DNA of 64,000 nt from Rhizobium gallicum bv. gallicum R602sp. Its GTDB lineage: Bacteria; Pseudomonadota; Alphaproteobacteria; Rhizobiales; Rhizobiaceae. The notes under the pieces were generated by a model. The model did no database searches. It was not told where the DNA came from and worked only from the letters and a program-made list of their open reading frames with translations. Each line of letters begins with the position of its first letter. Position 1 is the stretch's first letter. A program made the position numbers and the translations under genes. Below, piece after piece: positions 3,435 through 34,956 of this stretch. The DNA is taken from the NCBI RefSeq assembly GCF_000816845.1, contig NZ_CP006880.1, positions 1,798,001-1,862,000 of the forward strand. Reading direction: 5' to 3'.

Positions 3435-3641
3435 ATGTCACACAAAGTGGCCTTGAAGAAACGCGTGCTGTCTTCAAAGGATCTAGACATGCTGGACGGT
3501 TTGCTCAAGGAATGGTGCGACAGTCGTCACTACGACATTTTGAACTTGGAGGCCCAAGAGGCTGCAAGGGAGTTGGTGATGTGGTTTGAGTTCGGCGTCG
3601 ATAAGCCCCATCAACTTCGGGAGCTGCTTGCGACGCGTTAA
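3435..3641 (+). CDS. Small hypothetical protein
   Basis: This is a 68-residue predicted soluble, mostly helical protein with no recognised domain. The ATG at 3435 follows GGGAGGAAA at about 3422-3430, a good ribosome binding site. A start five codons earlier would lie on top of that site. Acidic and aromatic residues cluster in the middle (LLKEWCDSRHYDILNLEAQEA). It stands alone, with a hairpin just after its stop. Function unknown. Confidence 0.6.
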   Translation: MSHKVALKKRVLSSKDLDMLDGLLKEWCDSRHYDILNLEAQEAARELVMWFEFGVDKPHQLRELLATR

Positions 3642-21504: not shown

Positions 21505-22788
21505 CTACTGAATTGCGGAACTATCGGCCTTTTCAAGAGCAATGTAAGCCGCTGCCGTCCATGAGAATCCGAGCCCACCGCATCCTTCCCCGGTTTTCGG
21601 ATCGAAATATTCGGCAAAGCCTTCGGTCTCGATTGCGCTGATCGTCGATTGGCGCAGTTCCGCTGCAAATCCTGCGTGGCCGTTGCGGTGTAATCCCTCG
21701 ATCAGGAGCCAGTTGATGATCGCCCAGGCCGGACCGCGCCAATAGCGCTTGGCCTCGAAACTCGCGGAAAGAGGCTCGGTCGTCGGGAAGACGACTTTCA
21801 TACCCTTGCACCATCTTCGCATTTCGGCGGCTGCAGCGTCGGCTGTCGCCTCGTCAAGGTCGAGCGCAAGAAGCGGAATGAAGCCGGCCTGCGTGGCTGC
21901 GACGACATCCTCGCCGGCCAGCAGATCCCGCGAGACGAAACGCGAAAGATGAGAACGCCACTGCGCCTTCAGGGCCTGCCGTGTGCGCTCATTCAGCACT
22001 GCAATCTCATCGGCTTCGCCTGCGCGCCCGAGGACAGCTGCCAGATAATGCAGATCTTCACCGGCCTTCAGCAGGATCGCGCTGGTCTGGATATCAGCGA
22101 TCTTGAACTCGGCCTGTTGCCATTGCTCGACGGGGTCCCAGCCGCAGGCCGCATAGGTATCCAGGAGATGGATGAAGCGGCCATAGTCCTCGTCGCGCGG
22201 GCGCATTTGCGGGTTCACATGCCCTATATCTTTTCGCACAACCGGCGTTTCGGTTGTCGTCGCAACACGCGCAAGGGCGACGTCCCAGGCAGGCGAGTTG
22301 TCGCTGCCGCTTTCCCAAGGATGCAGCAAGGCGACGAGACCGGTGCCTTCCGGATCACGCGCGCTGTACCACCACCGGTGCCACTTCAAGGCGGCTTCGT
22401 AGAGCGTAAGGGTTCGCTTGTTTTCGACCGAGCCGGTGGCGACCGCTGTTTCGTAAATCTTGCGAAGAGCCATAGCGAAGACCGGTGGCTGCGTGATACC
22501 GGAGGTCGGAATGACATGGTTCGTGCGCCAGACGTCGGGGCCGGGGAAATAGCTGTCGCTCGGCTGATGGAACACGATATGGGGGATCATGCCATCGGTC
22601 CATTGTCCCTCGGCCAGCCGTTCGAGTTCACGATAGGCGCGGTCGATGTCGTAGGCGGCAAACCCCATGGCGACGAAGGCCGAATCCCAGTTCCACTGAA
22701 AAGGATAAAGCCGATCGGTCGGTACCGTGTAGCCGCCGCGGTCATTCGCCGCCAAGATCGCCTTGGCTTCATCGATGTATTTCGTCAT
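21505..22788 (-). CDS. MGH1-like (GH63-related) glycoside hydrolase, cytoplasmic
   Basis: This 427-residue (alpha/alpha)6-barrel enzyme has YPFQWNWDSAFVAMGF, DGMIPHIVFHQ, LHPWESGSDNSPAWD, FWRGPAWAIINWLL-like (RYWRGPAWAIINW) and GGLGFSWTAAAY. These are the signature blocks of mannosylglycerate-hydrolase or trehalase/GH63-type proteins. The acids in NWDSAF and SDNSPAWD are the likely catalytic region. No signal peptide. It lies 21 bp after the ATPase gene at the end of the first ABC operon, so it probably cleaves the imported alpha-linked disaccharide or glycoside. Exact specificity is unknown. Confidence 0.8.
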   Translation of the reverse strand: MTKYIDEAKAILAANDRGGYTVPTDRLYPFQWNWDSAFVAMGFAAYDIDRAYRELERLAEGQWTDGMIPHIVFHQPSDSYFPGPDVWRTNHVIPTSGITQPPVFAMALRKIYETAVATGSVENKRTLTLYEAALKWHRWWYSARDPEGTGLVALLHPWESGSDNSPAWDVALARVATTTETPVVRKDIGHVNPQMRPRDEDYGRFIHLLDTYAACGWDPVEQWQQAEFKIADIQTSAILLKAGEDLHYLAAVLGRAGEADEIAVLNERTRQALKAQWRSHLSRFVSRDLLAGEDVVAATQAGFIPLLALDLDEATADAAAAEMRRWCKGMKVVFPTTEPLSASFEAKRYWRGPAWAIINWLLIEGLHRNGHAGFAAELRQSTISAIETEGFAEYFDPKTGEGCGGLGFSWTAAAYIALEKADSSAIQ

Positions 22789-22809
22789 TCCATTTACTCC
22801 AGATATTTG

Positions 22810-23868
22810 TCAGGCAGCAGCCGCCAGGTAGGCCTTGCCGCTATCGGGTGCGAGCCAAGAAATGCGCGCGGGATCAGGTTTCAGGCCGATGACGTCGCCG
22901 CTTGCAACCTTTTCGGCGGCGGGCAGAATGACGCGAACGGGTTGGTTTTCGATCAATCCCGTCAAAAGAAGATGCGAACCCATTGGCTCGGCGACGCGAA
23001 CGCGCATTTGAAATCCCTCTGACGGCGGCGCAAGCACCACGGCTTCGCCGCGCAGCCCGAGGATGATCTCGGGCCCGGATTGCGGCGGCACCGAAAAGCG
23101 CTCGCTGCCCGCGATCACGTGCCCGTCGGTCACGGGCATGCGGATGAAATTCATCGGCGGATTGCCGATGAAGCCGCCGACGAACCGCGTGGCGGGATGG
23201 TTGTAGATGTCGACGGGATGGCCAACCTGCTCGATCTGGCCGTCGTGCATGACGGCGATCCTGTCCGAAAGGCCCATCGCCTCGGTCTGGTCGTGCGTCA
23301 CATAGATCGTCGTCGTGCCGGAAGACTGCAGGACCGTCTTTAGTTCCGTACGCATTTCCAGGCGCAGCAGCGCATCGAGATTGGAAAGCGGCTCATCCAT
23401 CAACAGGACCTTCGGCTCGACAGCGAGCGCCCGAGCCACGGCTACGCGCTGGCGTTGGCCGCCCGACAGCTTGTTCGGATAGCGGTCGAGATAGGGCTCT
23501 ATATGCAGAAGAGCTGCCGCTTTTTTCACCTGCTGGCTGACGCGCGCCTCATCGGCCTTTTGCATCCTGAGGCCGAAGGCGACATTTTCAAAGACGGTCA
23601 TATGCGGGAAGACGGCGTAGTTCTGGAAGACCATGGCAAGGCCGCGGTCCTTCGGCTGAAGCCCGACTACCGAGCGGTCTCCGATCCGAATGTCGCCGGC
23701 ACTTTCGGATTCAAGACCGGCGATGATGCGTAGCAGCGTCGTCTTTCCGCAGCCAGAGGGGCCGAGAAGGGAAACGAATTCCCCGTCGTTGACTGTCAGC
23801 GAGACCTCCTTCAGCGCCTGGAAGGTCCCGAAGTTCTTCCGGATGCGGTCGATGATGATGTTGGCCAT
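22810..23868 (-). CDS. ABC sugar importer ATP-binding protein (MalK/UgpC type)
   Basis: This 352-residue ATPase has Walker A GPSGCGKTT (near 37), the Q-loop, the signature LSGGQRQRVAVARAL, Walker B VLLMDEPLSNLD, and the switch His in YVTHDQTEAM. The C-terminal TOBE/OB regulatory domain (about 240-352) is typical of CUT1 sugar importers. The ATG at 23868 (MANIIIDRI) is preferred, since a longer in-frame extension is non-coding. It serves the permeases upstream. It may also energise the second, ATPase-less importer at 30542-33583. Confidence 0.93.
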   Translation of the reverse strand: MANIIIDRIRKNFGTFQALKEVSLTVNDGEFVSLLGPSGCGKTTLLRIIAGLESESAGDIRIGDRSVVGLQPKDRGLAMVFQNYAVFPHMTVFENVAFGLRMQKADEARVSQQVKKAAALLHIEPYLDRYPNKLSGGQRQRVAVARALAVEPKVLLMDEPLSNLDALLRLEMRTELKTVLQSSGTTTIYVTHDQTEAMGLSDRIAVMHDGQIEQVGHPVDIYNHPATRFVGGFIGNPPMNFIRMPVTDGHVIAGSERFSVPPQSGPEIILGLRGEAVVLAPPSEGFQMRVRVAEPMGSHLLLTGLIENQPVRVILPAAEKVASGDVIGLKPDPARISWLAPDSGKAYLAAAA

Positions 23869-23897
23869 GAAACTGTTCCCGTTACTTGGATGACCCG

Positions 23898-24728
23898 TTA
23901 CTTGGATGAAATGCCCCAGATCGCGAAAAGGTAGCGCCTGACCGCGAAGATGAAGACCACGGATGGCAGGATGAGCATGAGGCCGCCCGCAAAGCGGTAA
24001 TGCATGGGGCTTTCCGCCAGCACGGTCAGCAGATAGGCCGTTAACGTCCGATTTCTGACGGTGAGCACGGACGCGGCGAAAACCTCGTTCCAGGAGATGA
24101 CGAAGGCAAAGACGGCGGTCGCGGCGATACCTGGAAGGGCGAGAGGAGCGACGATCTTGAAGAATGCCTGGATACGCGAGCACCCGAAGACCCATGCCGC
24201 TTCCTCGAGTTCTCTCGGAACGCCAAGAAAGATGCCTTGCGTCACCAGCACGGCGAAGGGAAGGGCAAGGACGGTATGAACGAGCCCGACGCCCGTTACC
24301 GTATCGTAGAGGCCGAGACGGATGAAGGAAACGGTGAGCGGCAGAGCAAGGATTGCCAAAGGAAAGGCGCGGGTCAAAAGGACCATCAGCCGAAAGGAAT
24401 CCTTGCCGTGAAAATTATAGCGTGCCAGCGCATAGCCGGCGGGCGCTCCGAGAAGCAGGGACAGGGCAACCGTGATCGCTGCAGCTCCGAGTGAGTTCAG
24501 GAAGGAGCCGAGAACGCCTTCTGTCCTCAGGAAAAGCAGAAAGGGCTCTAAGGAAAGGCCTGTCGGCAGACCGGTCTTCGGCCAGAGGTAGACGGCGCTG
24601 CGTCCGCCGAAGGCGCCGAGCGCGACCAGATAGATCGGTGCGAGAACCCAGGCGCAAAGGACGGCGATCCCGCTCCAGAGCAGAATGCGGCGGGACGAGA
24701 CGAAGTTTGCGGCGCGGGCCGTGCTCAT
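23898..24728 (-). CDS. ABC sugar importer permease (MalG type)
   Basis: This 276-residue inner-membrane permease has six predicted helices. The EAA loop is at ELEEAAWVFGCSRIQAFFKIVAPLALPG, the ATPase contact site. The ATG at 24728 overlaps the stop of the upstream permease by 4 bp (ATGA), which indicates translational coupling. The long upstream in-frame extension lies inside that gene. Belongs to the CUT1 family. Confidence 0.92.
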   Translation of the reverse strand: MSTARAANFVSSRRILLWSGIAVLCAWVLAPIYLVALGAFGGRSAVYLWPKTGLPTGLSLEPFLLFLRTEGVLGSFLNSLGAAAITVALSLLLGAPAGYALARYNFHGKDSFRLMVLLTRAFPLAILALPLTVSFIRLGLYDTVTGVGLVHTVLALPFAVLVTQGIFLGVPRELEEAAWVFGCSRIQAFFKIVAPLALPGIAATAVFAFVISWNEVFAASVLTVRNRTLTAYLLTVLAESPMHYRFAGGLMLILPSVVFIFAVRRYLFAIWGISSK

Positions 24729-25576
24729 GGAAGACGCTCCGGATCGACCTTGATGGCCTTCAGATAGAACATGGTGGCCGCAAGCGAGACGAGCATGATG
24801 AGAACCGCGTAGGCTGCGGCAACGCCATAGTTTTGGTTCTGGTTCTGCCAATTGTAGGCCTCGCCGACGAGCACCGGGAAATTGCGGCCGCCAAGGGCAT
24901 AGACGACGGCAAAAACCTCGAAGGCCAAAACAGTGCGCAGGATGAGCGCCGACTGCAGCGCCGGCCGGATGAGCGGCAAGGTGATGCGGAAGAAGCGCGT
25001 CCACGGACCTGCGCCGAAGATTTCTGCCGCTTCCCGGTATTCCTTCGGCACCTGGTTGAGGCCGGCAACGATGACGACCATGACGATGGCCGTTCCCCGC
25101 CATATCTCGGCGGCGGCTATGCCGAGAAAAAGTGGAAACGGCGTCTGGTAGGAAAGCCAGCTCGCCTGCCGTTCTATGATGCCGAGGCCGTAAAGGAAGG
25201 AATTGAGATAACCGCTGTTCTGCAGGATCGACAACCAGACGAGACCGGCTGCGAGATCCGAAATGCCGAGCGGAATGGTCCAGATCCACAGGATCGTTTC
25301 CCGGCCGGCTGCCACTTTCGCGACCATCGTTCCCATGGCGAGCGCAATGACGATCTGCACCGGCACAACGGCAAGCGTCAGAAGAAACGTGTTTTGTACC
25401 GAGCGCGTAAAATTGAGATCGCCCACCATACGCTGGACATTGGTAAGCGAGGGCGTGCCATTGTCGGAGACGGCAAGCCAGATCGTCTGCACAAGCGGCA
25501 CGACGAACAGCAGCGCCAGGAACGCCACCGAGGGCAAGATCAGCAGATAGGGGATCCACGTGCGGTTGTTCGGCAT
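24725..25576 (-). CDS. ABC sugar importer permease (MalF type)
   Basis: This 283-residue inner-membrane permease has about six helices (WIPYLLILPSVAFLALLFVV at the start). The EAA loop EYREAAEIFGAGPWTRFFRI is followed by TLPLIRPAL. It forms the heterodimeric channel with the downstream permease. A 10-bp stem-loop separates it from the binding-protein gene upstream. Confidence 0.92.
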   Translation of the reverse strand: MPNNRTWIPYLLILPSVAFLALLFVVPLVQTIWLAVSDNGTPSLTNVQRMVGDLNFTRSVQNTFLLTLAVVPVQIVIALAMGTMVAKVAAGRETILWIWTIPLGISDLAAGLVWLSILQNSGYLNSFLYGLGIIERQASWLSYQTPFPLFLGIAAAEIWRGTAIVMVVIVAGLNQVPKEYREAAEIFGAGPWTRFFRITLPLIRPALQSALILRTVLAFEVFAVVYALGGRNFPVLVGEAYNWQNQNQNYGVAAAYAVLIMLVSLAATMFYLKAIKVDPERLP

Positions 25577-25605
25577 TGGCTTTGACTTCGTGGCTTTTCG
25601 GGAAG

Positions 25606-25631
25606 CGGCCCGGGCCTAGGCGCCCGGGCCG
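25606..25631 (-). terminator. Intra-operon stem-loop after the binding-protein gene
   Basis: CGGCCCGGGC and GCCCGGGCCG (10 bp, perfect) around a 6-nt loop, 7 nt beyond the binding-protein stop on the - strand. Such hairpins in ABC operons protect the binding-protein mRNA and lower expression of the membrane components. The role here is inferred. Confidence 0.5.
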
Positions 25632-25637
25632 AAAGGC

Positions 25638-26915
25638 TTATTCGACCGGGCAGGCTCCGTCGCTCTTGGCGTCCGGCGCCCAGCACGGGGCCTTCGTATC
25701 GGCCATCAGCTTTGCAAGCGTTGCGCCTTGCGCCTTCAGGACGTCGCCGACGGCTTCGTTCTGCAGGATGATCCGCTGGAAGCTGTCCATATAGACCTTG
25801 TTGAACTCGCCGCCCTTGTCGCCGAGGCCGACGGGAAGCAGCGAAATCAGCGCGTCCGGCGCGGTCTGGGTTGCGTTGACGGCAGCCGCGAGCAAGCCTA
25901 CTCCAGGATCGATATCGGAAGGAAGCTTGGCGTCGAGCGTCGGAAAGAACCCCACCTTCTGCGCTGTCAGCAATTGCGTATCGGGCATCGTCAGGTGTTC
26001 GATGATGGCGATCGCGCCTGCCTTGTCAGGTGCCCCCTTCGGAACGGCGAGGCCGGCGACAACGGGCATGTAACCGCGGCCTTTCGGCCCGGCGGGAGCC
26101 GGGAAGACGACATATTGATCAGGCTCGGAGGAGATCGCCTCCTTGAGGCGGGCGACGTGATCCCAGGCGACCATGACTTCGCCGGCAAGCAGCGGCTCCT
26201 GCATGAAGTCGTAGTTGGTGGAGTTCGGATTGACGACCGACCAGAGCTCCTTCAGCTTCTCCCACCCGGCTGCAGCATCAGCACTTTGGAAGGGCCGCAC
26301 GACGCCGCCTGTGAAGGAGGGATAGAAGTAACCCTGGAAAAAGCGGGACATCAGCCCCTTCGGCCCGGCCGGAAAGCCGATCTGCGGCTGGCCGGTGGCT
26401 TCCTGCATCTTCTTTCCCCATTCGATCAGTTGATCGTAGGTGAGCTTGTTCACATCCGCGCCCTGGGGAAGATATTGCAGGGCGTCCTTCCTGGCGGCCA
26501 TGACATAGGTCGCCTGCATCCAGGGGATATATTGCTGGCTGGACTTTCCGAGCTTGCCGAGATCAAGCAGAGGCTGCGGCATGCCTTTCGAGGCGAGCGC
26601 CTTGGCGACGTCGTCGAGCGGCTCAAGGCCGTCCTTGTCGGCAAGCGGCGACAGTTCGCCGTGCAAGGCGCCGACAAGGCTGATCGTGTGCGTTCCGGCC
26701 TGGCGCTCGGCCTCCATGCGGACCGCAAATTGCGGCGGCTCCTCGACTACGTAGTCGACCGGGCTCTGGACGCCCTTGAGCAGTTCTTCGCGAACCACTG
26801 TCGCTTCTGCGATCGGACGAAGTTGCGTGGACAGGAACACCGTGTCGGCAAGCACCGGCGTTGCGGCCAAAAGGACGGTCGATGCCAGAATTCCAAGTGA
26901 CGCTAGATGTTTCAT
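25638..26915 (-). CDS. Extracellular sugar-binding protein of ABC importer 1
   Basis: This 425-residue periplasmic binding protein has a signal peptide (about 1-23, ending TPVLA). The fold is a MalE-type family-1 solute-binding protein (TYDQLIEWGKKMQEATGQPQIG, then GEVMVAWDHVARLKEA and the late hinge segments). It starts 24 bp after the LacI gene in the same operon. The ligand is unknown; oligosaccharides are likely from the CUT1 architecture. Confidence 0.92.
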   Translation of the reverse strand: MKHLASLGILASTVLLAATPVLADTVFLSTQLRPIAEATVVREELLKGVQSPVDYVVEEPPQFAVRMEAERQAGTHTISLVGALHGELSPLADKDGLEPLDDVAKALASKGMPQPLLDLGKLGKSSQQYIPWMQATYVMAARKDALQYLPQGADVNKLTYDQLIEWGKKMQEATGQPQIGFPAGPKGLMSRFFQGYFYPSFTGGVVRPFQSADAAAGWEKLKELWSVVNPNSTNYDFMQEPLLAGEVMVAWDHVARLKEAISSEPDQYVVFPAPAGPKGRGYMPVVAGLAVPKGAPDKAGAIAIIEHLTMPDTQLLTAQKVGFFPTLDAKLPSDIDPGVGLLAAAVNATQTAPDALISLLPVGLGDKGGEFNKVYMDSFQRIILQNEAVGDVLKAQGATLAKLMADTKAPCWAPDAKSDGACPVE

Positions 26916-26939
26916 TTTCTCCTCCTCTTTGGTTCTTCT

Positions 26940-27950
26940 CTATGCATTTGGCAGTGCACGCCGATGGCTCCCGCGGTCGACGAATTCGATCGGGTGCAGT
27001 TCCTGAAGTTCTTCCGAAGGCTCGCCGGCGATGGCGCGAAGCAGCAGCGAGGCAAAGCTGCGGCCCAGGTTCTCGCCCGCCATGCGCATGGTGGAAAGCG
27101 GTGGGCTGGTATAGGCACCGGTGGGAAGATCGTCATGGCCGACGATGCTGATCGTCTCCCCGCCCTCAATCTCACGGAGCGCCCGCAGGGCGCCGATCGC
27201 CATTTCGTCTGTCGCGCAGACGATCGCGGTTGGCCGGCGTGGATGGCGCAGCAATTCCAGCGCCGCCAGGTATCCACCCTGCTCGGTCGGCGCGCCTTCG
27301 GCGCAAAGTTCGCTCGAAAGGCCGCTTTCTTCCATGGCTGCCTGCCAGCCCATGCAGCGGACATGGGCAAAATAATAATCCTGGGGGCCGGCAATGTGAG
27401 CGATCCGCCGATGACCATCGGCATGAAAGCGAAGGCTTGCCGCTTGAAACCCGGCAAAGCCGTCGCCGTCGAGATAGGGATGCGGCAACGCCGACTCGGT
27501 CCGTCCATTGGTGACGAACGGAACGCCCCGCGCCTGCAGAAATTCCACGCGCTCGTCCCTGCGTTTCGTGCGAACGAGCAGCATGGCGTCGACCCTTTGC
27601 CCGTCGACGAAACGGCGGCACATGTCGAGCTCGCTCTCGCCGCGCGGCACAGGGGCAATCACGAGGTTAAGGCCGGCGGTCGCAAGATGTTCTGCGCAGC
27701 CGGAGAGCATATCGAGAAAGTGCGGCGGGCCGATATGGCCCGGATCGCTCGGGAGTGTCACGGCGACAAGTTCGGCGCGCTGTTTGCGAAGGCGTCGTGC
27801 AGAAGCATTGGGGCGATAACCCGTGAGCGCTGCCGCTTCCCGTACGCGTTCGCGGGTTGCCGGCGAGACGTCCGGATAGCCGTCAAGGGCGCGCGATACC
27901 GTGGTGATCGACAGGCCGAGCGACTGGGCCAACTGTTTTAAATTGGACAC
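26940..27950 (-). CDS. LacI-family regulator of ABC operon 1
   Basis: This 336-residue regulator starts at GTG 27950 behind GGGAGGT (27957-27963). The next ATG upstream would put an unrelated 42-residue tail before the helix-turn-helix. The N-terminal LacI DNA-binding domain (SNLKQLAQSLGLSITTVSRAL) and hinge precede a periplasmic-binding-protein-like effector domain with VGHDDLPTGAY near the end. It is first in the operon (LacI, binding protein, two permeases, ATPase, hydrolase). Two identical palindromes lie just upstream, so it likely controls itself and the operon. Confidence 0.92.
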   Translation of the reverse strand: MSNLKQLAQSLGLSITTVSRALDGYPDVSPATRERVREAAALTGYRPNASARRLRKQRAELVAVTLPSDPGHIGPPHFLDMLSGCAEHLATAGLNLVIAPVPRGESELDMCRRFVDGQRVDAMLLVRTKRRDERVEFLQARGVPFVTNGRTESALPHPYLDGDGFAGFQAASLRFHADGHRRIAHIAGPQDYYFAHVRCMGWQAAMEESGLSSELCAEGAPTEQGGYLAALELLRHPRRPTAIVCATDEMAIGALRALREIEGGETISIVGHDDLPTGAYTSPPLSTMRMAGENLGRSFASLLLRAIAGEPSEELQELHPIEFVDRGSHRRALPNA

Positions 27951-27982
27951 TGCGTACCTCCCAGATACAGGGTCAATATGAA

Positions 27983-28018
27983 CCAAAACGTTTTGGAGAT
28001 CAAGCCAAAACGTTTTGG
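27983..28018 (-). promoter_or_regulatory. Two tandem LacI-type operators
   Basis: The perfect 14-bp palindrome CCAAAACGTTTTGG occurs twice (27983-27996 and 28005-28018), with centres 22 bp (two helical turns) apart. The nearer copy ends 33 bp upstream of the GTG start. The central CG and symmetry are the hallmark of LacI/GalR operators. Confidence 0.75.
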
Positions 28019-28192
28019 AAAGGGACAGCCAGCAGAAGCCCTGAGCGCTCGTCGGCCGCCAGACGGGTAAGACCAAGATCTTTGCAATATCGACCGGTCA
28101 AGCTCAGCCGCGCTGTCAGCACTGCGGAGAAAATTTACGCAAGGACGAGGAATGGATCTGCGCGATCGGAGCCGGCCCCGCAACCGCCCCAG

Positions 28193-29239
28193 TCACGCGC
28201 TCTCTCGCACGATGAACCGCCAAGGTGTATAGAACGCCTTCGCTTCCAAGGGCTTCTGCGCGGAGAGACTGTCAATGAGGTGCTGGCCAGCTTCAAGTAG
28301 CGAAAGCCATTCCGGGCCGATGGTCGTCAAGCGGGGATTGCAGTAAAAGCCCTCCTCGGCATTGCCACACCCTACGACGGCAATTTCGCTGGGCACCTGA
28401 ATGCCGAGGCGAGCAAACTCCTCGATCAGTGTCACAGCCGTGTAGTCGGAGTCGAGCAAGACCGCTGTCGGCCGCTTTGCCATTTCAGCGATATTTCGCG
28501 CGCACCCAGCGGTAGCCTCACGCGCATCTGCGCCCACCATTGTGGTAATCAGCACTGACAGACCTGCCCTCACCGCACGCGCCTTCAGCGCAGAAATTCG
28601 CGGATTGTGCTGCATTTCGGCGTTTTGAATGTAGGCGAAATCGCGATGTCCTTTGTGCAGAAGATCGTCGAAAGCACACTCAAGCGCGTCGATCAAGCCG
28701 CTGTTAAGAACAGAATAGGATCGCGGTTGTGCTGTGGGATGGATGACGAGACAGGGTCGATTGAATGGCGCAAATGTCTGCTCGACCTGCTCTTCGGTGA
28801 GAAAACCGACTTCAGCGATCACACCATCGGCAAGACCCGCTTCAACCTCCCCCAGGATCTTCTGGACTGCACCGATCGTGGAGCCCGTCAAGACAATCGG
28901 CAGCAATCCCTGCTGCGCAGCCACCGATCCGAGATCGTGAACCATCTTGTCGGCATAGGGTATTCCGAGCTTCGGCAGGACAATGCAAATGCGTTCACTC
29001 TGCTGGCGACGCAAATGGCGGGCGGTTTTGTTCTGGATGTACCCCAGTTCTTCGACGGCGGCGCGGATGCGCTCGCGTGCTTCCGGTCCAACGCGCTTTA
29101 AATGTTCCTGGCGGCTGCTGAAATAGAAGGAAACGGCGGCCGTGGATACGTCGGCAAGTCGAGCAACGTCGGCAACGGTCGCGGATCGTTCGGTTCTGGC
29201 CGCCAGCCTTTCGCCGTCACGCATGTTTTCACTGCTCAT
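28193..29239 (-). CDS. LacI-family regulator of the sulfatase operon
   Basis: This 348-residue regulator has a LacI HTH (about 20-75; TVADVARLADVSTAAVSFYF) and an effector domain (ERICIVLPKLGIPYADKMV onward). SVSFYF in place of the usual SRAL gives a recognition helix different from that of the other LacI protein here, so the two should bind different operators. The ATG directly abuts the sulfatase stop (TGAATG), so it ends the sulfatase operon and is translationally coupled to it. Confidence 0.9.
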   Translation of the reverse strand: MSSENMRDGERLAARTERSATVADVARLADVSTAAVSFYFSSRQEHLKRVGPEARERIRAAVEELGYIQNKTARHLRRQQSERICIVLPKLGIPYADKMVHDLGSVAAQQGLLPIVLTGSTIGAVQKILGEVEAGLADGVIAEVGFLTEEQVEQTFAPFNRPCLVIHPTAQPRSYSVLNSGLIDALECAFDDLLHKGHRDFAYIQNAEMQHNPRISALKARAVRAGLSVLITTMVGADAREATAGCARNIAEMAKRPTAVLLDSDYTAVTLIEEFARLGIQVPSEIAVVGCGNAEEGFYCNPRLTTIGPEWLSLLEAGQHLIDSLSAQKPLEAKAFYTPWRFIVRESA

Positions 29240-30523
29240 TCAAGTCGCCGTAATCCTAGGACATCTCTCGCCGGCCGCAACGATGCGCTTCAGAAGCCGC
29301 TCGCGCAGCCGCTTCCTTATATCCTCATAGCCATCCCGGCCACAGAGATCTTCCAGCTCGTAAGGGTCGTTTTCAAGGTCGTAGAGATGTGTCTCGACAT
29401 AGTGGGCGCTCGCCATGTCGTTCCAACCGCTGAGATCCGGTGCGGTGACCTCGTATTTCCATCTTCGCGTCCGCAGTGCCCTGCCCACATGATGCTCGCT
29501 GATCTGCACAAGCACGTCTTCTTCGCCAGCACCCTGTTGATCGAGGATTGACCTTCCCTGCATTAAAGCGGGCACCTGCAATCCGGCCGCCGCAAGAAGT
29601 GTTGGCGGCAGGTCGATCAGGCTGACCAGACCCTGATGGCCTCCCCGCCCCATGAACCCGGGCCCATGAAAGAAAGTCGGCACCCGTATCGACGCCTCGT
29701 GACACGAGCGCTTGTATTCGTTGTTGCGTGTCTTGAAATGACAGCCGTGGTCCGAGGTGAAGAGAATGATCGTGTTTTCGAGCTGGCCGAGGCTTGTCAA
29801 TGCATCCGTCAGTCGTCCAAGCGCCTCGTCCAGGCGCTGGATCATTCCGAGATAGCCCGCATAGTGCTCACTCGAGGATCCGCCAAGGGCCGCAAGATCA
29901 GGCGGCAATTCCATTTGTTTTCGAATCCGCTCCTCGTAGCCGATCGGCGCAGGATAGCTGTCGAATTCATTCTGCTGGTGCGGCTCGATGAAGGACAGGA
30001 AAAGAAAGTATGGCTTTTCACGGTCGGCCGCCACAAAGCGGATCGCTGCGTCAGTCAGGGCGTCGACACGGTAGCCGGGAAGCCTGACGCGCTCGTCCTT
30101 GCCGTTGAAGACGACTGTATCGTAGGCATATGACGTGAATTCGAGAATGTTGGACGCCAGCCAATATTGGTAGCCGCCGCGTTCAGACGCAGGCACCGGC
30201 TCGCTGCCTGAAAGATGCCATTTGCCGATATAGCCGGTCTCGTAGCCCCCTTGGCGGAACCAGTGTGCGAGCGTCTTCTGGCCACTCGGCAAGGGAATGC
30301 TGTTGCGGAAGCATCCCGTCGTCGTGGGGTAAAGGCCCGTCTGCAGCGCCGAGCGCGCCGGTCCGCACACCGGCTGGCAGGTGAAAGAATTCGGCACGAA
30401 CATCCCGGCTTCGGCAAGGCGGTCGAAATTTGGCGTCAGCTTCATTGGATGACCGTGAAGCCCGACCGTATCCCAGCGTTGTTGGTCGGTGAAAAAGACG
30501 ATGACGTTGGGAGAAGCACTCAT
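29240..30523 (-). CDS. Type I sulfatase, cytoplasmic
   Basis: This 427-residue arylsulfatase-family enzyme has the modification motif CGPAR at residues 53-57 (C-x-P-x-R), where Cys-53 is converted to formylglycine. N-terminal metal ligands are in FFTDQQRWDT, and GKWHLSG, HGCHF-like SDHGCHFK and other metal-binding residues follow. No signal peptide is visible (start MSASPNVIVFF), unlike most sulfatases. The anaerobic-type C-x-S motif is absent; the Cys-type needs an FGE, whose gene is at 33709. It sits between the permease genes and the regulator. It probably desulfates an imported sugar. Confidence 0.9.
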   Translation of the reverse strand: MSASPNVIVFFTDQQRWDTVGLHGHPMKLTPNFDRLAEAGMFVPNSFTCQPVCGPARSALQTGLYPTTTGCFRNSIPLPSGQKTLAHWFRQGGYETGYIGKWHLSGSEPVPASERGGYQYWLASNILEFTSYAYDTVVFNGKDERVRLPGYRVDALTDAAIRFVAADREKPYFLFLSFIEPHQQNEFDSYPAPIGYEERIRKQMELPPDLAALGGSSSEHYAGYLGMIQRLDEALGRLTDALTSLGQLENTIILFTSDHGCHFKTRNNEYKRSCHEASIRVPTFFHGPGFMGRGGHQGLVSLIDLPPTLLAAAGLQVPALMQGRSILDQQGAGEEDVLVQISEHHVGRALRTRRWKYEVTAPDLSGWNDMASAHYVETHLYDLENDPYELEDLCGRDGYEDIRKRLRERLLKRIVAAGERCPRITAT

Positions 30524-30541
30524 TATCTACCTTTCCATGGC

Positions 30542-31378
30542 TTATTTCATTCCGGACATCATCACCGAGCGCACGAAATAGCGTTGCATGAACACAAACA
30601 GCAGGAGGCTGGGGAGAAACAGGATCACCCCGCCCGTTGCCGTCAGATTCCATTGTGTGAAGAACTCCGAATTGAACAACGTCAGCCCTGTCGTAATCGG
30701 CCGCATCTCGACCGAGCTTACAACCACCAAGGGCCAGAGAAATTCATTGAACTGGAACACGAAGGTCAGCAGGCCAAGCGTTGCCATCGGTGCGCCAAGC
30801 TGCGGCAAGACAACCGATCGATAAATGCGCCACTCCGAGGCACCGTCGAGACGCGCAGCATCAAGAAGGTCGCTCGGAATTGGCCGGATAAATTGCCGCA
30901 TGAGGAAAATTCCGTAGGCGCTCATGGCGAACGGCATGATGAGACCCTGATAGGTATTCAGCCAGCCCATTTTTGCGGTCAGAATGTAAAGCGGGATCAT
31001 CCGGATGAAGAAGGGCAGCATCAGCGTGGAGAGCAGTGCTGCAAACATTGCCCGCTTTCCCGGAAACTCCATCTTTGCAAACACGTAGCCGACGAGCGGA
31101 TCGAAGAAGAGGTGGAGCGCAGTTATGCCGCCGGCGATGATGAAACTGTTGAGTATGAACCGGGCAAACGGCGCCTTCTCCCAGATTGCCACGTAGTTCG
31201 AAAACTGCAGCACCGAGGGGACCAGCATCGGCACGCCGCTGAAGAGATCGGCGTCAGTCTGCAGCGATAGAGAGATCATGTACAAGAATGGAAAGAGCGC
31301 AAGGATGACAAAGAACCCGAGGGTGCCGTAGACGGCAAAGACGGCAAGTGGGGCGCGGTGGGAGGAGCCGGTCGACAT
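30542..31378 (-). CDS. ABC sugar importer permease (MalG type), operon 2
   Basis: This 278-residue permease has six predicted helices. The EAA loop is DLLDAARLDGASEWRIYRSVVLPQLGAP. The ATG at 31378 overlaps the upstream stop by 1 bp. The upstream in-frame extension is inside the neighbouring gene. CUT1 family, part of a binding protein-permease-permease-sulfatase-LacI operon. Confidence 0.9.
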   Translation of the reverse strand: MSTGSSHRAPLAVFAVYGTLGFFVILALFPFLYMISLSLQTDADLFSGVPMLVPSVLQFSNYVAIWEKAPFARFILNSFIIAGGITALHLFFDPLVGYVFAKMEFPGKRAMFAALLSTLMLPFFIRMIPLYILTAKMGWLNTYQGLIMPFAMSAYGIFLMRQFIRPIPSDLLDAARLDGASEWRIYRSVVLPQLGAPMATLGLLTFVFQFNEFLWPLVVVSSVEMRPITTGLTLFNSEFFTQWNLTATGGVILFLPSLLLFVFMQRYFVRSVMMSGMK

Positions 31379-32265
31379 CAGTAGACCACCTCCCGGTTCA
31401 GGAATCGAAATTGCACGAACGTGATTGCCAGGATCGCAATGAACATCAGGAACGAGAGCGCCGATGCGTATCCGATGTTTAGCTCCAGGAATGCCACCTC
31501 GTAGACATGCAATGCGTAAAGACGGGTCGCCTCTGCTGGACCGCCGCCCGTTAGCAGATAGGGTGCAGAAAGATCCTGAAGGTGTGCGATCATGCTGATA
31601 ACGGCAAGAAAGAGTGTCGTCGGCATCAGCAACGGAATTGTAATTCGCCTGAACCGTTGAGCGGGCGAGGCGCCATCGACCTCGGCAGCCTCGTAGAGCT
31701 CCTTGGGAATGCCCTGGATGGCGGCGATGTAGATCAGCATCGCGTAGCCGATGTCCTTCCATACGGTGATCGCGATGATTGTCGGAAGGGCTGTCGATGG
31801 TGTGCTCAGCCAGTTCTGCGTGGGAAGGTCCAGAAAAGAGAGCAAGACGTTCAGCATGCCGGTATAGGGATCGAGCAGGCTCTTCCACATCAGGGCAACG
31901 ATCACGAAGGAGATTATATAGGGGAAGAAGATGATGGCGCGAATGGTCGTAGCGGCCTTGATTGGGCCGCTGAGAATGGCCGCCAGAAAGAGCGCCGGCA
32001 CCAAGGTGCAGAATGTTCCCAGAGTCGCGAACACGATGGTGCGGCCGAAGGCAGCGCGCACACGGGGGTCCATCAGAGCCTGGCGATAATTCTCAAAGCC
32101 TGCAAATTCAGATTGGCCGATGAGCGGCTGCCCGCGAAAGAAGCTGGCCCAGAGCTCCACCCCGATCGGATAGAAGAAATAGACCAGGAAGTATGCGATT
32201 GCAGGCAGCAGAACGATGTAGGCGAATCCGGCCTCCCGGGCCTTGCGGCTGTTAAGCAGCCTCAT
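31378..32265 (-). CDS. ABC sugar importer permease (MalF type), operon 2
   Basis: This 295-residue inner-membrane permease starts MRLLNSRKAREAG at 32265 behind ACGGAGGTCG. The longer frame overruns the binding-protein gene. EAA loop: KELYEAAEVDGASPAQRFRRITIP. About six helices. It forms the channel with the permease downstream. No ATPase gene is present in this operon. Confidence 0.9.
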   Translation of the reverse strand: MRLLNSRKAREAGFAYIVLLPAIAYFLVYFFYPIGVELWASFFRGQPLIGQSEFAGFENYRQALMDPRVRAAFGRTIVFATLGTFCTLVPALFLAAILSGPIKAATTIRAIIFFPYIISFVIVALMWKSLLDPYTGMLNVLLSFLDLPTQNWLSTPSTALPTIIAITVWKDIGYAMLIYIAAIQGIPKELYEAAEVDGASPAQRFRRITIPLLMPTTLFLAVISMIAHLQDLSAPYLLTGGGPAEATRLYALHVYEVAFLELNIGYASALSFLMFIAILAITFVQFRFLNREVVY

Positions 32266-32338
32266 GCCGACGACCTCCGTCAGAACAATGATTGCGGACG
32301 GCAGTGACGACGCCAAAACGCGCAGCCGCTGCTCTTTG

Positions 32339-33583
32339 TTACTTATGCCCGAGTGCGGCGTTTGCCCGGCCCGCATAGTCGGAGAGAACCTCCTGCGCAG
32401 GCTTGTCGTTATAGAGGATGTCCTGGATGGCCGCCTTGAAAAGATCCTGTACGGCAGCATTCTTGCCGGTCAGCGAAAGCTTGGCGGATGAATCTACGGC
32501 GTAAGGCAGGCATTGGCTGAATTTTCCGAGCACAGGATCTGCCTTGACTTTCGGATCCGCAGCCCAGGATTTGCGCGGCATGGTCATGCCGTTGGGCAAC
32601 GAGGCTGCAAGTTCCGTCTCAAGCGTAACGAACCGTTTGAGCAGGTCCCACGCTTCGGCTGGATGCTTGGCCGTCTTGGGGATGAAAAGGCTCACGCCAC
32701 CGGACATCGTCGCCTGCTGCTTTTCCGTCAGCGACGGTGCGACGTCCCAGTTCAGTTTGGGATTGCCCGTTTTGATCGGGCTGACGTCCCATGGACCCGT
32801 TAGGATCATCGCAGCCCGGCCAGCCGTAAAGAGCTTCTGCGGGCCTTCGTAGTCGGCACCCGCCACCGGCAAAGGTGCGGCTTTGTCCTTGTGGATGAGG
32901 TCGGCCACAAACTGGATCGCCTGTGCGGACTGCGGGCTGTCGAAAGCGACCTTGTTAGCCGCCGAGTCATATAAAGCGCCGCCATTCTGGTAAATCCATG
33001 GCGTGTAGTATGTTGCAACCTGGTTGGGAGCAAATCCGAATTTTCCACGCTTGCTGGTTGCAATCGCGACCTTGCGGAATTCCTGCCAATTGGTCGGCGG
33101 CTTGTGGAAGCCGGCTTCCTTCAACATGTCCACATTATAGACCAGCGTCGCACAGGTCAGGTGTAATTGGATGCCATAGTACTTGCCGTCGATCGTGTTC
33201 CGGTCGACCGAGAAATCCTGCCAGTCCTGTGGATAACCCAAGTCTTTGCCGTCTTTTGCGACAAAGTCGTTGAGCGGCGTAATCATGCCCTGCAAAGCGA
33301 ATTCGGGTACCCAGCCACCAGGTTCGGCAACGAGGTCCGGCGCATTTCCAACCGAAAGGTCGGCCACCAGCTTGGTGCGCATGTCCGGCCATTGGAAGCG
33401 ACCCCATTCGACCGTCCAGCCGGGGTGGTCTGACTCGAATTTTTTGATGACGTCGGCATAGGCTTGGTAGGCATGGCCAGCGTTCCAATAAACCTTAAGC
33501 GTTTCGGCCCGAGCAGCGCCTCCAACTCCATACAGGCACAACGCAACGGCAATGCAACGGCTCAATCGATCGGCAAGTTTCAT
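32339..33583 (-). CDS. Extracellular sugar-binding protein of ABC importer 2
   Basis: This 414-residue periplasmic protein has a signal peptide (about 1-26, ending GGAARA). The family-1 binding-protein fold shows WPDMRTKLVADLSVGNAPDL, NWQEFRKVAIATSKR, and GRAAMILTGPWDVS. It heads the sulfatase operon. The presumed ligand is a sulfated oligosaccharide, inferred from the sulfatase and FGE genes only. A strong palindrome lies 72 bp upstream. Confidence 0.9.
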   Translation of the reverse strand: MKLADRLSRCIAVALCLYGVGGAARAETLKVYWNAGHAYQAYADVIKKFESDHPGWTVEWGRFQWPDMRTKLVADLSVGNAPDLVAEPGGWVPEFALQGMITPLNDFVAKDGKDLGYPQDWQDFSVDRNTIDGKYYGIQLHLTCATLVYNVDMLKEAGFHKPPTNWQEFRKVAIATSKRGKFGFAPNQVATYYTPWIYQNGGALYDSAANKVAFDSPQSAQAIQFVADLIHKDKAAPLPVAGADYEGPQKLFTAGRAAMILTGPWDVSPIKTGNPKLNWDVAPSLTEKQQATMSGGVSLFIPKTAKHPAEAWDLLKRFVTLETELAASLPNGMTMPRKSWAADPKVKADPVLGKFSQCLPYAVDSSAKLSLTGKNAAVQDLFKAAIQDILYNDKPAQEVLSDYAGRANAALGHK

Positions 33584-33654
33584 GGGTCTTCTCCCAAAGA
33601 CAACTCAGAAACCGGCGCATTCATCACCGGATCCCTCCTCAAGGCCCGATGAAA

Positions 33655-33682
33655 CCGGTAGGTTAATGGATTAACCTACCGG
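33655..33682 (-). promoter_or_regulatory. 28-bp inverted repeat upstream of ABC operon 2
   Basis: CCGGTAGGTTAAT and ATTAACCTACCGG (13-bp perfect arms, 2-bp centre GG) lie 72 bp upstream of the binding-protein start. On the - strand a TTGACT or TTGAAA -35 (about 33690) has its -10 inside the repeat. Its sequence differs from the first operon's operators, so it is a good candidate for the second LacI protein. It may also act as the FGE transcript terminator. Confidence 0.5.
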
Positions 33683-33708
33683 GCTTTTCAAGTCAATCGA
33701 AGTCCCGA

Positions 33709-34608
33709 TCAAATGTCAAAAGCGACCCGGAAGCCAATATGTCCGGTCGTCGAGTCACCGGTGCTGCCCATGCGAGCAGCGATGCGGTATCGGTGGCAAT
33801 AGGATGCATGGCAGAGGTAGGAGCCGCCTTTGAGAACGCGGCGGCTTTCCTGCAAAGCCGTGGCGTTTAGAGACTGCGAGGTCTTGCGCAAGGACCTCAC
33901 GCGAAACGCGTCCGCGGTCCATTCCCAGCAGTTCCCGGCCATATTATACAGTCCAAATCCGTTGGGCTCGAACGAGACCGAGGGTGCGAGCCCCTCGTAA
34001 CCGTCTACCCCGCTATCGAATTCCGGAAACCGCCCCTGCCAGATATTACAGGGGGTAAAGTCATCATCCGGATGGCGGTCGCCCCACGGGTAGATCGCGC
34101 CGCTAAGTCCGCCCTTGGCTGCGTGTTCCCATTCGGCTTCGCTCGGAAGCCGTCCGCCCACCCAAGCGGCAAATTGGGCCGCGTCCCGCCATGAGATGTG
34201 AACGACAGGATGATCCTTGAATGCCTCGAGATTGGAACAGGGCCCAAATGGCGCGCGCCAGCATGCGCCCTCGACCCGCCGCCACCATTCAGCGCCGACG
34301 ACGCCTGAGGTCGCAAGCTTGGGAGCGACGTGCCGATAAAACACATAGGACCAACCCAACTGCTCGGCCTCGGTGATATAACCCGTGGCCGCAATGAAAT
34401 CGGCGAACTGCGAATGGCTGACAGCTGCCTTGGCCAACAGGAACGGCTTGAGCCGCAGCTTCCGGGCAGGGCCTTCCCCGTCCGCCGTCAGGTATGGCCT
34501 GTCTGTCCCGACCTGCACGAGCCCACCTGGAATTTGTGCCTTATCGACAAATACCGGAGAAAGAGCTCGACGCACGGGCGCCCTCATCGGCGGATCGGCC
34601 TCGGACAT
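33709..34608 (-). CDS. Formylglycine-generating enzyme (SUMF1/FGE family)
   Basis: This 299-residue enzyme (start MSEADPPMRAP at 34608; an in-frame extension of 29 residues is possible) converts the sulfatase Cys into formylglycine. It shows GWSYVFYRH, VHISWRDAAQFAAWVGGRLP, AKGGLSGAIYPWGD, MAGNCWEWTADAF, and the active-site block SYLCHASYCHRYRIAAR with both copper-binding cysteines, as in aerobic FGE. No signal peptide, so it would act in the cytoplasm like its apparent substrate. It lies 125 bp upstream of ABC operon 2 on the same strand. Confidence 0.9.
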   Translation of the reverse strand: MSEADPPMRAPVRRALSPVFVDKAQIPGGLVQVGTDRPYLTADGEGPARKLRLKPFLLAKAAVSHSQFADFIAATGYITEAEQLGWSYVFYRHVAPKLATSGVVGAEWWRRVEGACWRAPFGPCSNLEAFKDHPVVHISWRDAAQFAAWVGGRLPSEAEWEHAAKGGLSGAIYPWGDRHPDDDFTPCNIWQGRFPEFDSGVDGYEGLAPSVSFEPNGFGLYNMAGNCWEWTADAFRVRSLRKTSQSLNATALQESRRVLKGGSYLCHASYCHRYRIAARMGSTGDSTTGHIGFRVAFDI

Positions 34609-34956
34609 GTTGGATAATTCGCTCGGGTGGCAGCAGCTCTTCATGGTGTCATTCGTTGGTTGCCGGCGATTGGCAGGTTTCAGTCCAAGATACAATAAGT
34701 TCTACGAACGTTGCGCAATGGGTTTTGCTCAACATGAAGACCAGCTGGCTGCCGGACGAGGGCGTCGATAAAGAGGTTGATGTCGAAGAGAAAGCCGCCT
34801 TTCTCAGTCCGCAAGCGGCTTTCGAGCCTTTTTCAAATTGCTAGACCTCTTCAGGAAGTGGCGAAGAAGCGACATATGCCGTCGGTCACCTCAGAAATTT
34901 GCAACAAACGCTCCGGGTCGACGTTAGGTGTATTAAAGGCAACTCTGAGGCGACCC

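Follow-up and report, generated by a model that had tools for sequence, protein, structure and literature searches.

We analysed a stretch of 64,000 nucleotides (the window) from Rhizobium gallicum bv. gallicum R602sp, which corresponds to positions 1798001-1862000 of the 2.47-Mb contig C4 (NZ_CP006880.1) in a genome of 7.31 Mb. Between 28193 and 34644 its minus strand carries six genes that encode a formylglycine-type sulfatase, a sugar-type ATP-binding cassette (ABC) importer, a LacI-family regulator and a formylglycine-generating enzyme (FGE). The minus-strand order is FGE, binding protein, permease A, permease B, sulfatase and LacI, with the following genes and features:

28193..29239, minus strand: LacI-family regulator (PF00356, LacI, 39 bits; PF13377, Peripla_BP_3, 75 bits)
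29240..30523, minus strand: sulfatase of formylglycine type, predicted cytoplasmic, 427 residues (PF00884, 200.5 bits; AlphaFold2 model with a mean predicted local distance difference test score, pLDDT, of 90.4)
30353..30367, minus strand: sulfatase motif C53-G-P-A-R57, the formylglycine site, from the sequence
30542..31378, minus strand: ABC permease B, UgpE/MalG type, 278 residues (PF00528)
31378..32265, minus strand: ABC permease A, UgpA/MalF type, 295 residues (PF00528; start set by homology)
32339..33583, minus strand: ABC substrate-binding protein of carbohydrate type with a signal peptide (SBP_bac_1, 133 bits)
33655..33682, no strand: palindrome CCGGTAGGTTAATCCATTAACCTACCGG, the presumed LacI operator; its core GTTAATNNATTAAC keeps its position across related loci
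33668-33673, minus strand: -10-like TAATCC within the palindrome, 17 bases after TTGACT
33691..33696, minus strand: -35-like TTGACT; in eight further loci inspected, the palindrome is likewise preceded by a TTGAC box
33709..34644, minus strand: FGE, 311 residues, without a signal peptide (PF03781, 243 bits; best PDB relative the FGE 6s07, 302 bits)
33796..33813, minus strand: FGE catalytic cysteine pair C278 and C283 (GGSYLCHASYC; GGSYLCHASYCHRYR), from the sequence
34630..34635, minus strand: N-terminal Cys-Cys of the FGE, C4-C5; CC is enriched in the FGEs of the fetched loci

All six genes scored above the Pfam cut-offs, which bears out an earlier note on this DNA that had placed a binding protein, two permeases, a sulfatase, a LacI regulator and an FGE on one strand. 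The note's gene set stands, but its extent of 28193..34608 does not, as the FGE most likely starts at ATG 34644 (MKSCC...), matching Rhizobium sullae. From the binding-protein gene to the LacI gene the intergenic gaps are at most 73 bases, while the FGE and binding-protein genes are 125 bases apart. R. sullae is the closest named relative we met. Its sulfatase is 93 % identical, and its plasmid record matches the full length of the locus with 89.3 % identity.

The sulfatase has the C-x-P-x-R signature with a cysteine, the Sulfatase domain and the corresponding fold, which predicts a formylglycine-dependent (S1) enzyme that hydrolyses sulfate esters. In an alignment of 80 sequences, the one from the window included, C53, P55, A56 and R57 are each identical in at least 97 %. 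The best solved folds for the model are carbohydrate sulfatases. Neither the solved structures nor the family models searched gave a close match to the subfamily.

The earlier note had also proposed that the sulfatase and the FGE lack signal peptides and that the sulfatase is cytoplasmic. Both points held. No signal peptide precedes the sulfatase domain, and D13 of the conserved FFTDQQRW lies only 13 residues from the start. The highest 10-residue hydropathy was 2.49 in the binding protein, which has a signal peptide, compared with 1.37 and 0.96 in the sulfatase and the FGE. Since a signal-peptide-like start was seen in none of the 86 sulfatase relatives tested (of 91 loci), the predicted cytoplasmic location is well supported. 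The subfamily is tight and present in several phyla, with records from Paenibacillus, Poribacteria, Planctomycetota and Chloroflexi. It was found in 6 of 297 Rhizobiaceae genomes (E 1e-80) and, with wider sampling, in 5 of 397 genomes of the order (E 1e-120) and 2 of 385 of the class (E 1e-140), our genome being counted in both.

The importer was recognised as a carbohydrate transporter in line with the earlier claim. The binding-protein model is nearest to maltose- and oligosaccharide-binding proteins, and the two permeases score 64 and 66 bits for BPD_transp_1. The start of permease A is corrected to 32265. An exported binding protein and two permeases are thus present, as in a CUT1-type sugar importer. 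The binding protein, the permeases, the sulfatase and mostly also LacI occur together in the nearer relatives among the alphaproteobacteria (L014-L017, L019-L021, L031, L035, L058, L094, L095 and L106); a simple picker of open reading frames (ORFs) hid one gene in some of the loci compared.

The palindrome overlaps the putative promoter of the binding-protein gene, and both lie in the gap between this gene and the FGE gene. The window, L014, L015, L016 (two copies), L019, L058, L094 and L095 have the palindrome core GTTAATNNATTAAC about 90 to 110 bases ahead of the binding-protein gene, and L018 has the exact core at position 3510. L020 and L106 have the diverged form ATTAATCGATTAAT about 60 bases ahead of the gene. 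In L017 an inspection of 500 bases revealed no such palindrome, and none was seen in L021, L031 and L035; the regulator of L021 and L035 belongs to another cluster. Relatives of the LacI protein accompany the palindrome across the loci, and the exact core has a single copy in the whole genome, at this locus. The LacI regulator would be expected to bind here. A possible leader ORF of 15 codons (33581-33643) follows a strong Shine-Dalgarno sequence, GAGGAGGG, and its stop overlaps the binding-protein start. GAGGAGGG is also present in L014, L015, L016, L094 and L095, where the leader ORFs have little in common beyond it.

The FGE has the enzyme core (243 bits) and both active-site cysteines. The genome encodes three PF03781 proteins, and the catalytic cysteine pair is found only in this one. 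There are ten PF00884 matches, and C-x-[PA]-x-R occurs in the sulfatase of the locus and in five others. A radical-SAM sulfatase maturase, the anaerobic alternative, was rejected as activator, as a genome search with TIGR03942 (E 0.001) gave no match. Since the FGE is the sole PF03781 protein with paired cysteines, no radical-SAM maturase was detected and five further Cys-type sulfatases are encoded, it is probably the general maturase of the cell. It is probably also a transcription unit of its own, because the presumed operator lies between it and the binding-protein gene. The FGE had been described as dedicated to this sulfatase. Its position upstream of the operator and the presence of five further sulfatases in the genome speak against this, as do several relatives in which the FGE is encoded away from this locus or did not turn up in the search. 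The claim that FGE and sulfatase share a compartment agrees with the missing signal peptide, but this counts as no evidence, since the available text of PMC4505483 describes FGE as cytosolic in prokaryotes generally; the same source states that FGE requires copper.

Counted by E value alone, an FGE match is present in 54 of 297 Rhizobiaceae genomes (E 1e-55). All six genomes with this sulfatase have one, compared with 48 of the 291 others (Fisher p 2.9e-5, a guide only, as the genomes are related). Among these six, FGE and sulfatase are neighbours in our genome and G057, share a contig at a distance of 26 kb in G296, and are on different contigs in G131, G266 and G281. Two R. leguminosarum plasmids and Rhizobium sp. 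16-449-1b likewise have an FGE next to the operon. In L034 it immediately follows the sulfatase, and in L029, L037 and L054 (Paenibacillus) the two are a few kb apart. Among 50 of the 80 sulfatase-bearing genomes, again counted by E value alone, 33 have an FGE at E 1e-40: sorted by record title, 27 of 29 isolates, with L017 (Mesorhizobium) and L031 (Fluviibacterium) as the misses, and 6 of 21 metagenome bins.

Taken together, the parts, the missing signal peptides and the conserved palindrome fit a regulated operon that imports a sulfated carbohydrate whole and desulfates it in the cytoplasm, a reading we consider probable, if by no means assured. An intact sulfated carbohydrate, from a monosaccharide to a small oligosaccharide, would enter through the CUT1-type transporter, which would borrow an ATPase encoded elsewhere in the genome. 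The sulfatase would cleave the sulfate ester in the cytoplasm, after which the desulfated sugar would be broken down by the usual catabolic routes. LacI would be released from the operator overlapping the -10 box by this sugar or a derivative of it. The upstream FGE would oxidise C53 to formylglycine and would also serve the other Cys-type sulfatases. The earlier proposal that a sulfated glycan is imported intact and desulfated inside thus gains from the cytoplasmic sulfatase, from the sugar-type importer and from the glycoside hydrolase and aldehyde dehydrogenase genes of L031 and L035 described below, while a sulfated glycan as the ligand is plausible.

The nature of the sugar is the weakest point of this proposal. 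Two loci, L031 and L035, have genes for a GH2 enzyme and an aldehyde dehydrogenase downstream of the sulfatase, in L035 by way of a LacI-like gene. The GH2 protein of L035 aligns with the beta-D-galactosidase 5euv of the PDB with 927 bits, falls short of the NCBIfam thresholds for beta-galactosidases and has no signal peptide by eye. Just upstream of the operon, L015 encodes a GMC oxidoreductase, a short-chain dehydrogenase/reductase and a galactonate dehydratase that scores 728.6 bits against a cut-off of 311; L016 has relatives of the dehydratase and the GMC oxidoreductase on the downstream side, inverted, in a cluster that extends beyond the locus edge, with its promoter outside the view. 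L051 has galK-, galE- and galT-like genes (by eye) and a GH4 gene beside the sulfatase. Because galactonate dehydratase relatives are present in 47 of the 50 genomes (E 1e-40), their presence is uninformative and only the adjacency in L015 and L016 counts. A gene of the mandelate racemase (MR)/enolase group lies beside the sulfatase in many Poribacteria, but these are close relatives and we did not take them as independent evidence. The literature searched yielded no paper joining galactose-6-sulfate and galactonate dehydratase, and searches on cytoplasmic or intracellular sulfatases together with transporters, and on formylglycine and ABC transporters in Paenibacillus, likewise turned up none. 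A sulfated galactoside as the substrate is a possible but tentative reading, with the balance against it.

Several observations weigh against import and cytoplasmic desulfation of a sugar, or against its details. Relatives of 57-60 % identity (L107, L108 and L117-L120) carry the sulfatase outside this binding-protein/permease operon, where its neighbours are an FGE, further sulfatases or more remotely related ABC genes. No ATPase gene is among the six (Pfam); the nearest candidate, at 22813-24195, lies in another operon, while the operons of L021, L031 and L035 open with an ATPase-like gene (by eye). The operon of the window has no glycosidase or sugar-catabolic gene, and the GH2, galactonate and gal genes are likewise missing from the operons of R. 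sullae and R. leguminosarum. The galactose hints are restricted to a few lineages, and the Paenibacillus loci examined contain mainly further sulfatases and ABC genes. Membership of the galactonate dehydratase in the regulon was rejected, since no GTTAAT palindrome precedes its cluster in L015. All eleven MR/enolase matches of our genome are outside the window. With one mismatch or fewer allowed, the palindrome has two sites in the genome and a reversed control pattern three; rarity alone proves nothing, and the weight therefore rests on the conserved position. Finally, 17 of the 50 sulfatase-bearing genomes gave no FGE match at E 1e-40, 15 of them being metagenome bins.

The neighbouring operon on the same strand (21505-28076) is another sugar ABC operon. 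It encodes a separate LacI regulator, a binding protein and permeases, together with an ATPase resembling UgpC (400.7 bits, cut-off 432) and an MGH1-like glycoside hydrolase (376 bits for the glucosylglycerate hydrolase model, below its cut-off of 550). Our guess is that this ATPase serves both operons.

Of the alternatives, sulfur scavenging holds up best. ABC uptake followed by cytoplasmic hydrolysis of sulfate esters is a known layout of sulfur scavenging, as in the Ats system of Pseudomonas. Organic sulfate esters might then be imported mainly for sulfate as a sulfur source, with the organic moiety of minor importance, and the TauD-type dioxygenase-like genes (by eye) of the Paenibacillus loci L037 and L052 would agree with this. 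However, the regulator is of LacI type with a local palindrome, the transporter is of sugar type, and GH2 and aldehyde dehydrogenase genes lie downstream of the sulfatase in L031 and L035. We regard this explanation as unlikely.

The enzyme could also be another hydrolase of the alkaline phosphatase superfamily, acting on a phosphonate monoester, a phosphodiester or a sulfamate and not on a sugar O-sulfate. It has partial matches to the choline-sulfatase and PehA models and an SGSH_C domain match, and its D13-Q14 and D258-H259 resemble what we take to be features of the choline-sulfatase/PehA group. As a choline sulfatase (TIGR03417) it was nevertheless rejected, with 139.7 bits against a curated cut-off of 433.45, and as a phosphoric/sulfuric ester hydrolase PehA (NF045661) with 128.8 bits against 900. 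The top structural matches are carbohydrate sulfatases, although the ranges of these and of other enzymes overlap lower down the list: choline sulfatase reached 35.9 against the model and several carbohydrate sulfatases did no better (9bas 35.5, 1fsu 36.2), which also tells against a sugar sulfatase. We give a different chemistry a slim chance. Still slimmer is the chance that the operon recycles the bacterium's own sulfated glycan, such as fragments of sulfated lipopolysaccharide or Nod factor, and not a foreign nutrient: rhizobia are capable of making sulfated surface glycans, but the subfamily extends to the phyla named above and is rare among Rhizobiaceae.

If regulated import with cytoplasmic desulfation is true, a rhizobium and unrelated bacteria of other phyla use the same kind of cytoplasmic sulfatase on a sulfated sugar that is common, and the clean operator makes the inducer easy to seek. 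The same replicon may possibly hold another cytoplasmic desulfation system. A second sulfatase family, starting MK-x-VFVLFDSLNRH, is found in L111 (8092-9585; our own genome, near C4:1334103-1335107), L108, L109 and L120. Its members have no signal peptide by eye and the one in our genome has a CMPAR motif. ABC permease relatives share the loci L108, L111 and L120 with these sulfatases.

The FGE itself begins with a Cys-Cys tail. We compared 38 distinct cysteine-paired FGE sequences from the fetched loci, the window's included, with other ORFs of at least 200 residues. CC lay no more than 25 residues from an in-frame start codon in 33 of 38 FGEs and 23 of 1089 control ORFs, and no more than about 10 residues from it in 30 and 10, respectively. 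L014, L016 and L094 are among the loci with such a tail, and the FGEs of L124 and L125 have C-x-C in place of CC. The sequences are related and, where named, mostly alphaproteobacterial, with three from Paenibacillus. In the database, 117 of the best 120 of 6873 FGE matches have the catalytic cysteine pair. Among the 108 listed with at least 25 residues ahead of the core, 80 have CC and 10 only C-x-C (90 of 108 together). Part of the 18 without either may be start-site errors; they include P0121, the entry for the window's FGE, which begins MRAPV downstream of the likely MKSCC start and so is annotated without the tail. An N-terminal extension with C50 and C52 is described as confined to the FGE of higher eukaryotes in the available part of PMC7279497, with which the bacterial tails contrast. 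No comparable Cys-Cys tail on a bacterial FGE was reported in the literature searched, as far as its texts were accessible. Our guess would be a role in copper supply, on which the tail might bear. A broader, rather unlikely idea joins the two findings. A purely cytoplasmic sulfatase family common to several phyla would have a single, widely occurring sulfated galactoside as its imported substrate. The bacterial FGEs that mature it would carry, in their flexible N-terminal Cys-Cys or Cys-x-Cys tail, the counterpart of the human C50/C52 extension, perhaps for copper pick-up or reduction in the cytosol.

Among known systems, the closest solved folds to the sulfatase are the S1_25 module 6hr5, the S1_11 enzymes 5g2v and 7lha and the chondroitin sulfatases 6j66 and 8di0, all of other S1 subfamilies and 22-27 % identical over the structural alignments. 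The FGE shares the common core and the cysteine pair with 6s07, presumably from Thermomonospora curvata, and differs by its MKSCC tail start. The choline sulfatase of Sinorhizobium meliloti (6fny, 6g5z, 7pth; PMC6189696, as far as its text was available) is likewise rhizobial and has a Cys-type sulfatase fold. The acesulfame sulfatase of Shinella, as described in the accessible text of PMC11500405, is a plasmid-encoded formylglycine sulfatase that is probably activated by an FGE from another replicon. Compared by description, it has 502 residues, a CxPxRxxxLTGR signature and an artificial sweetener as substrate, and lies beside an amidase cluster. The precedent for ABC import with cytoplasmic desulfation is the glycosaminoglycan import cluster Smon0120-0127 of Streptobacillus moniliformis, according to the available text of PMC5430744. 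Both systems combine a binding-protein-dependent ABC importer with a predicted cytoplasmic sulfatase, here judged from sequence alone. The Streptobacillus cluster contains polysaccharide lyases and UGL (GH88), none of which are among our six proteins (Pfam), whereas in our locus an FGE, a LacI gene and the conserved palindrome lie side by side. The principle is therefore already known, and this analysis adds the conserved sulfatase subfamily, the conserved operator-like palindrome and the FGE tail.

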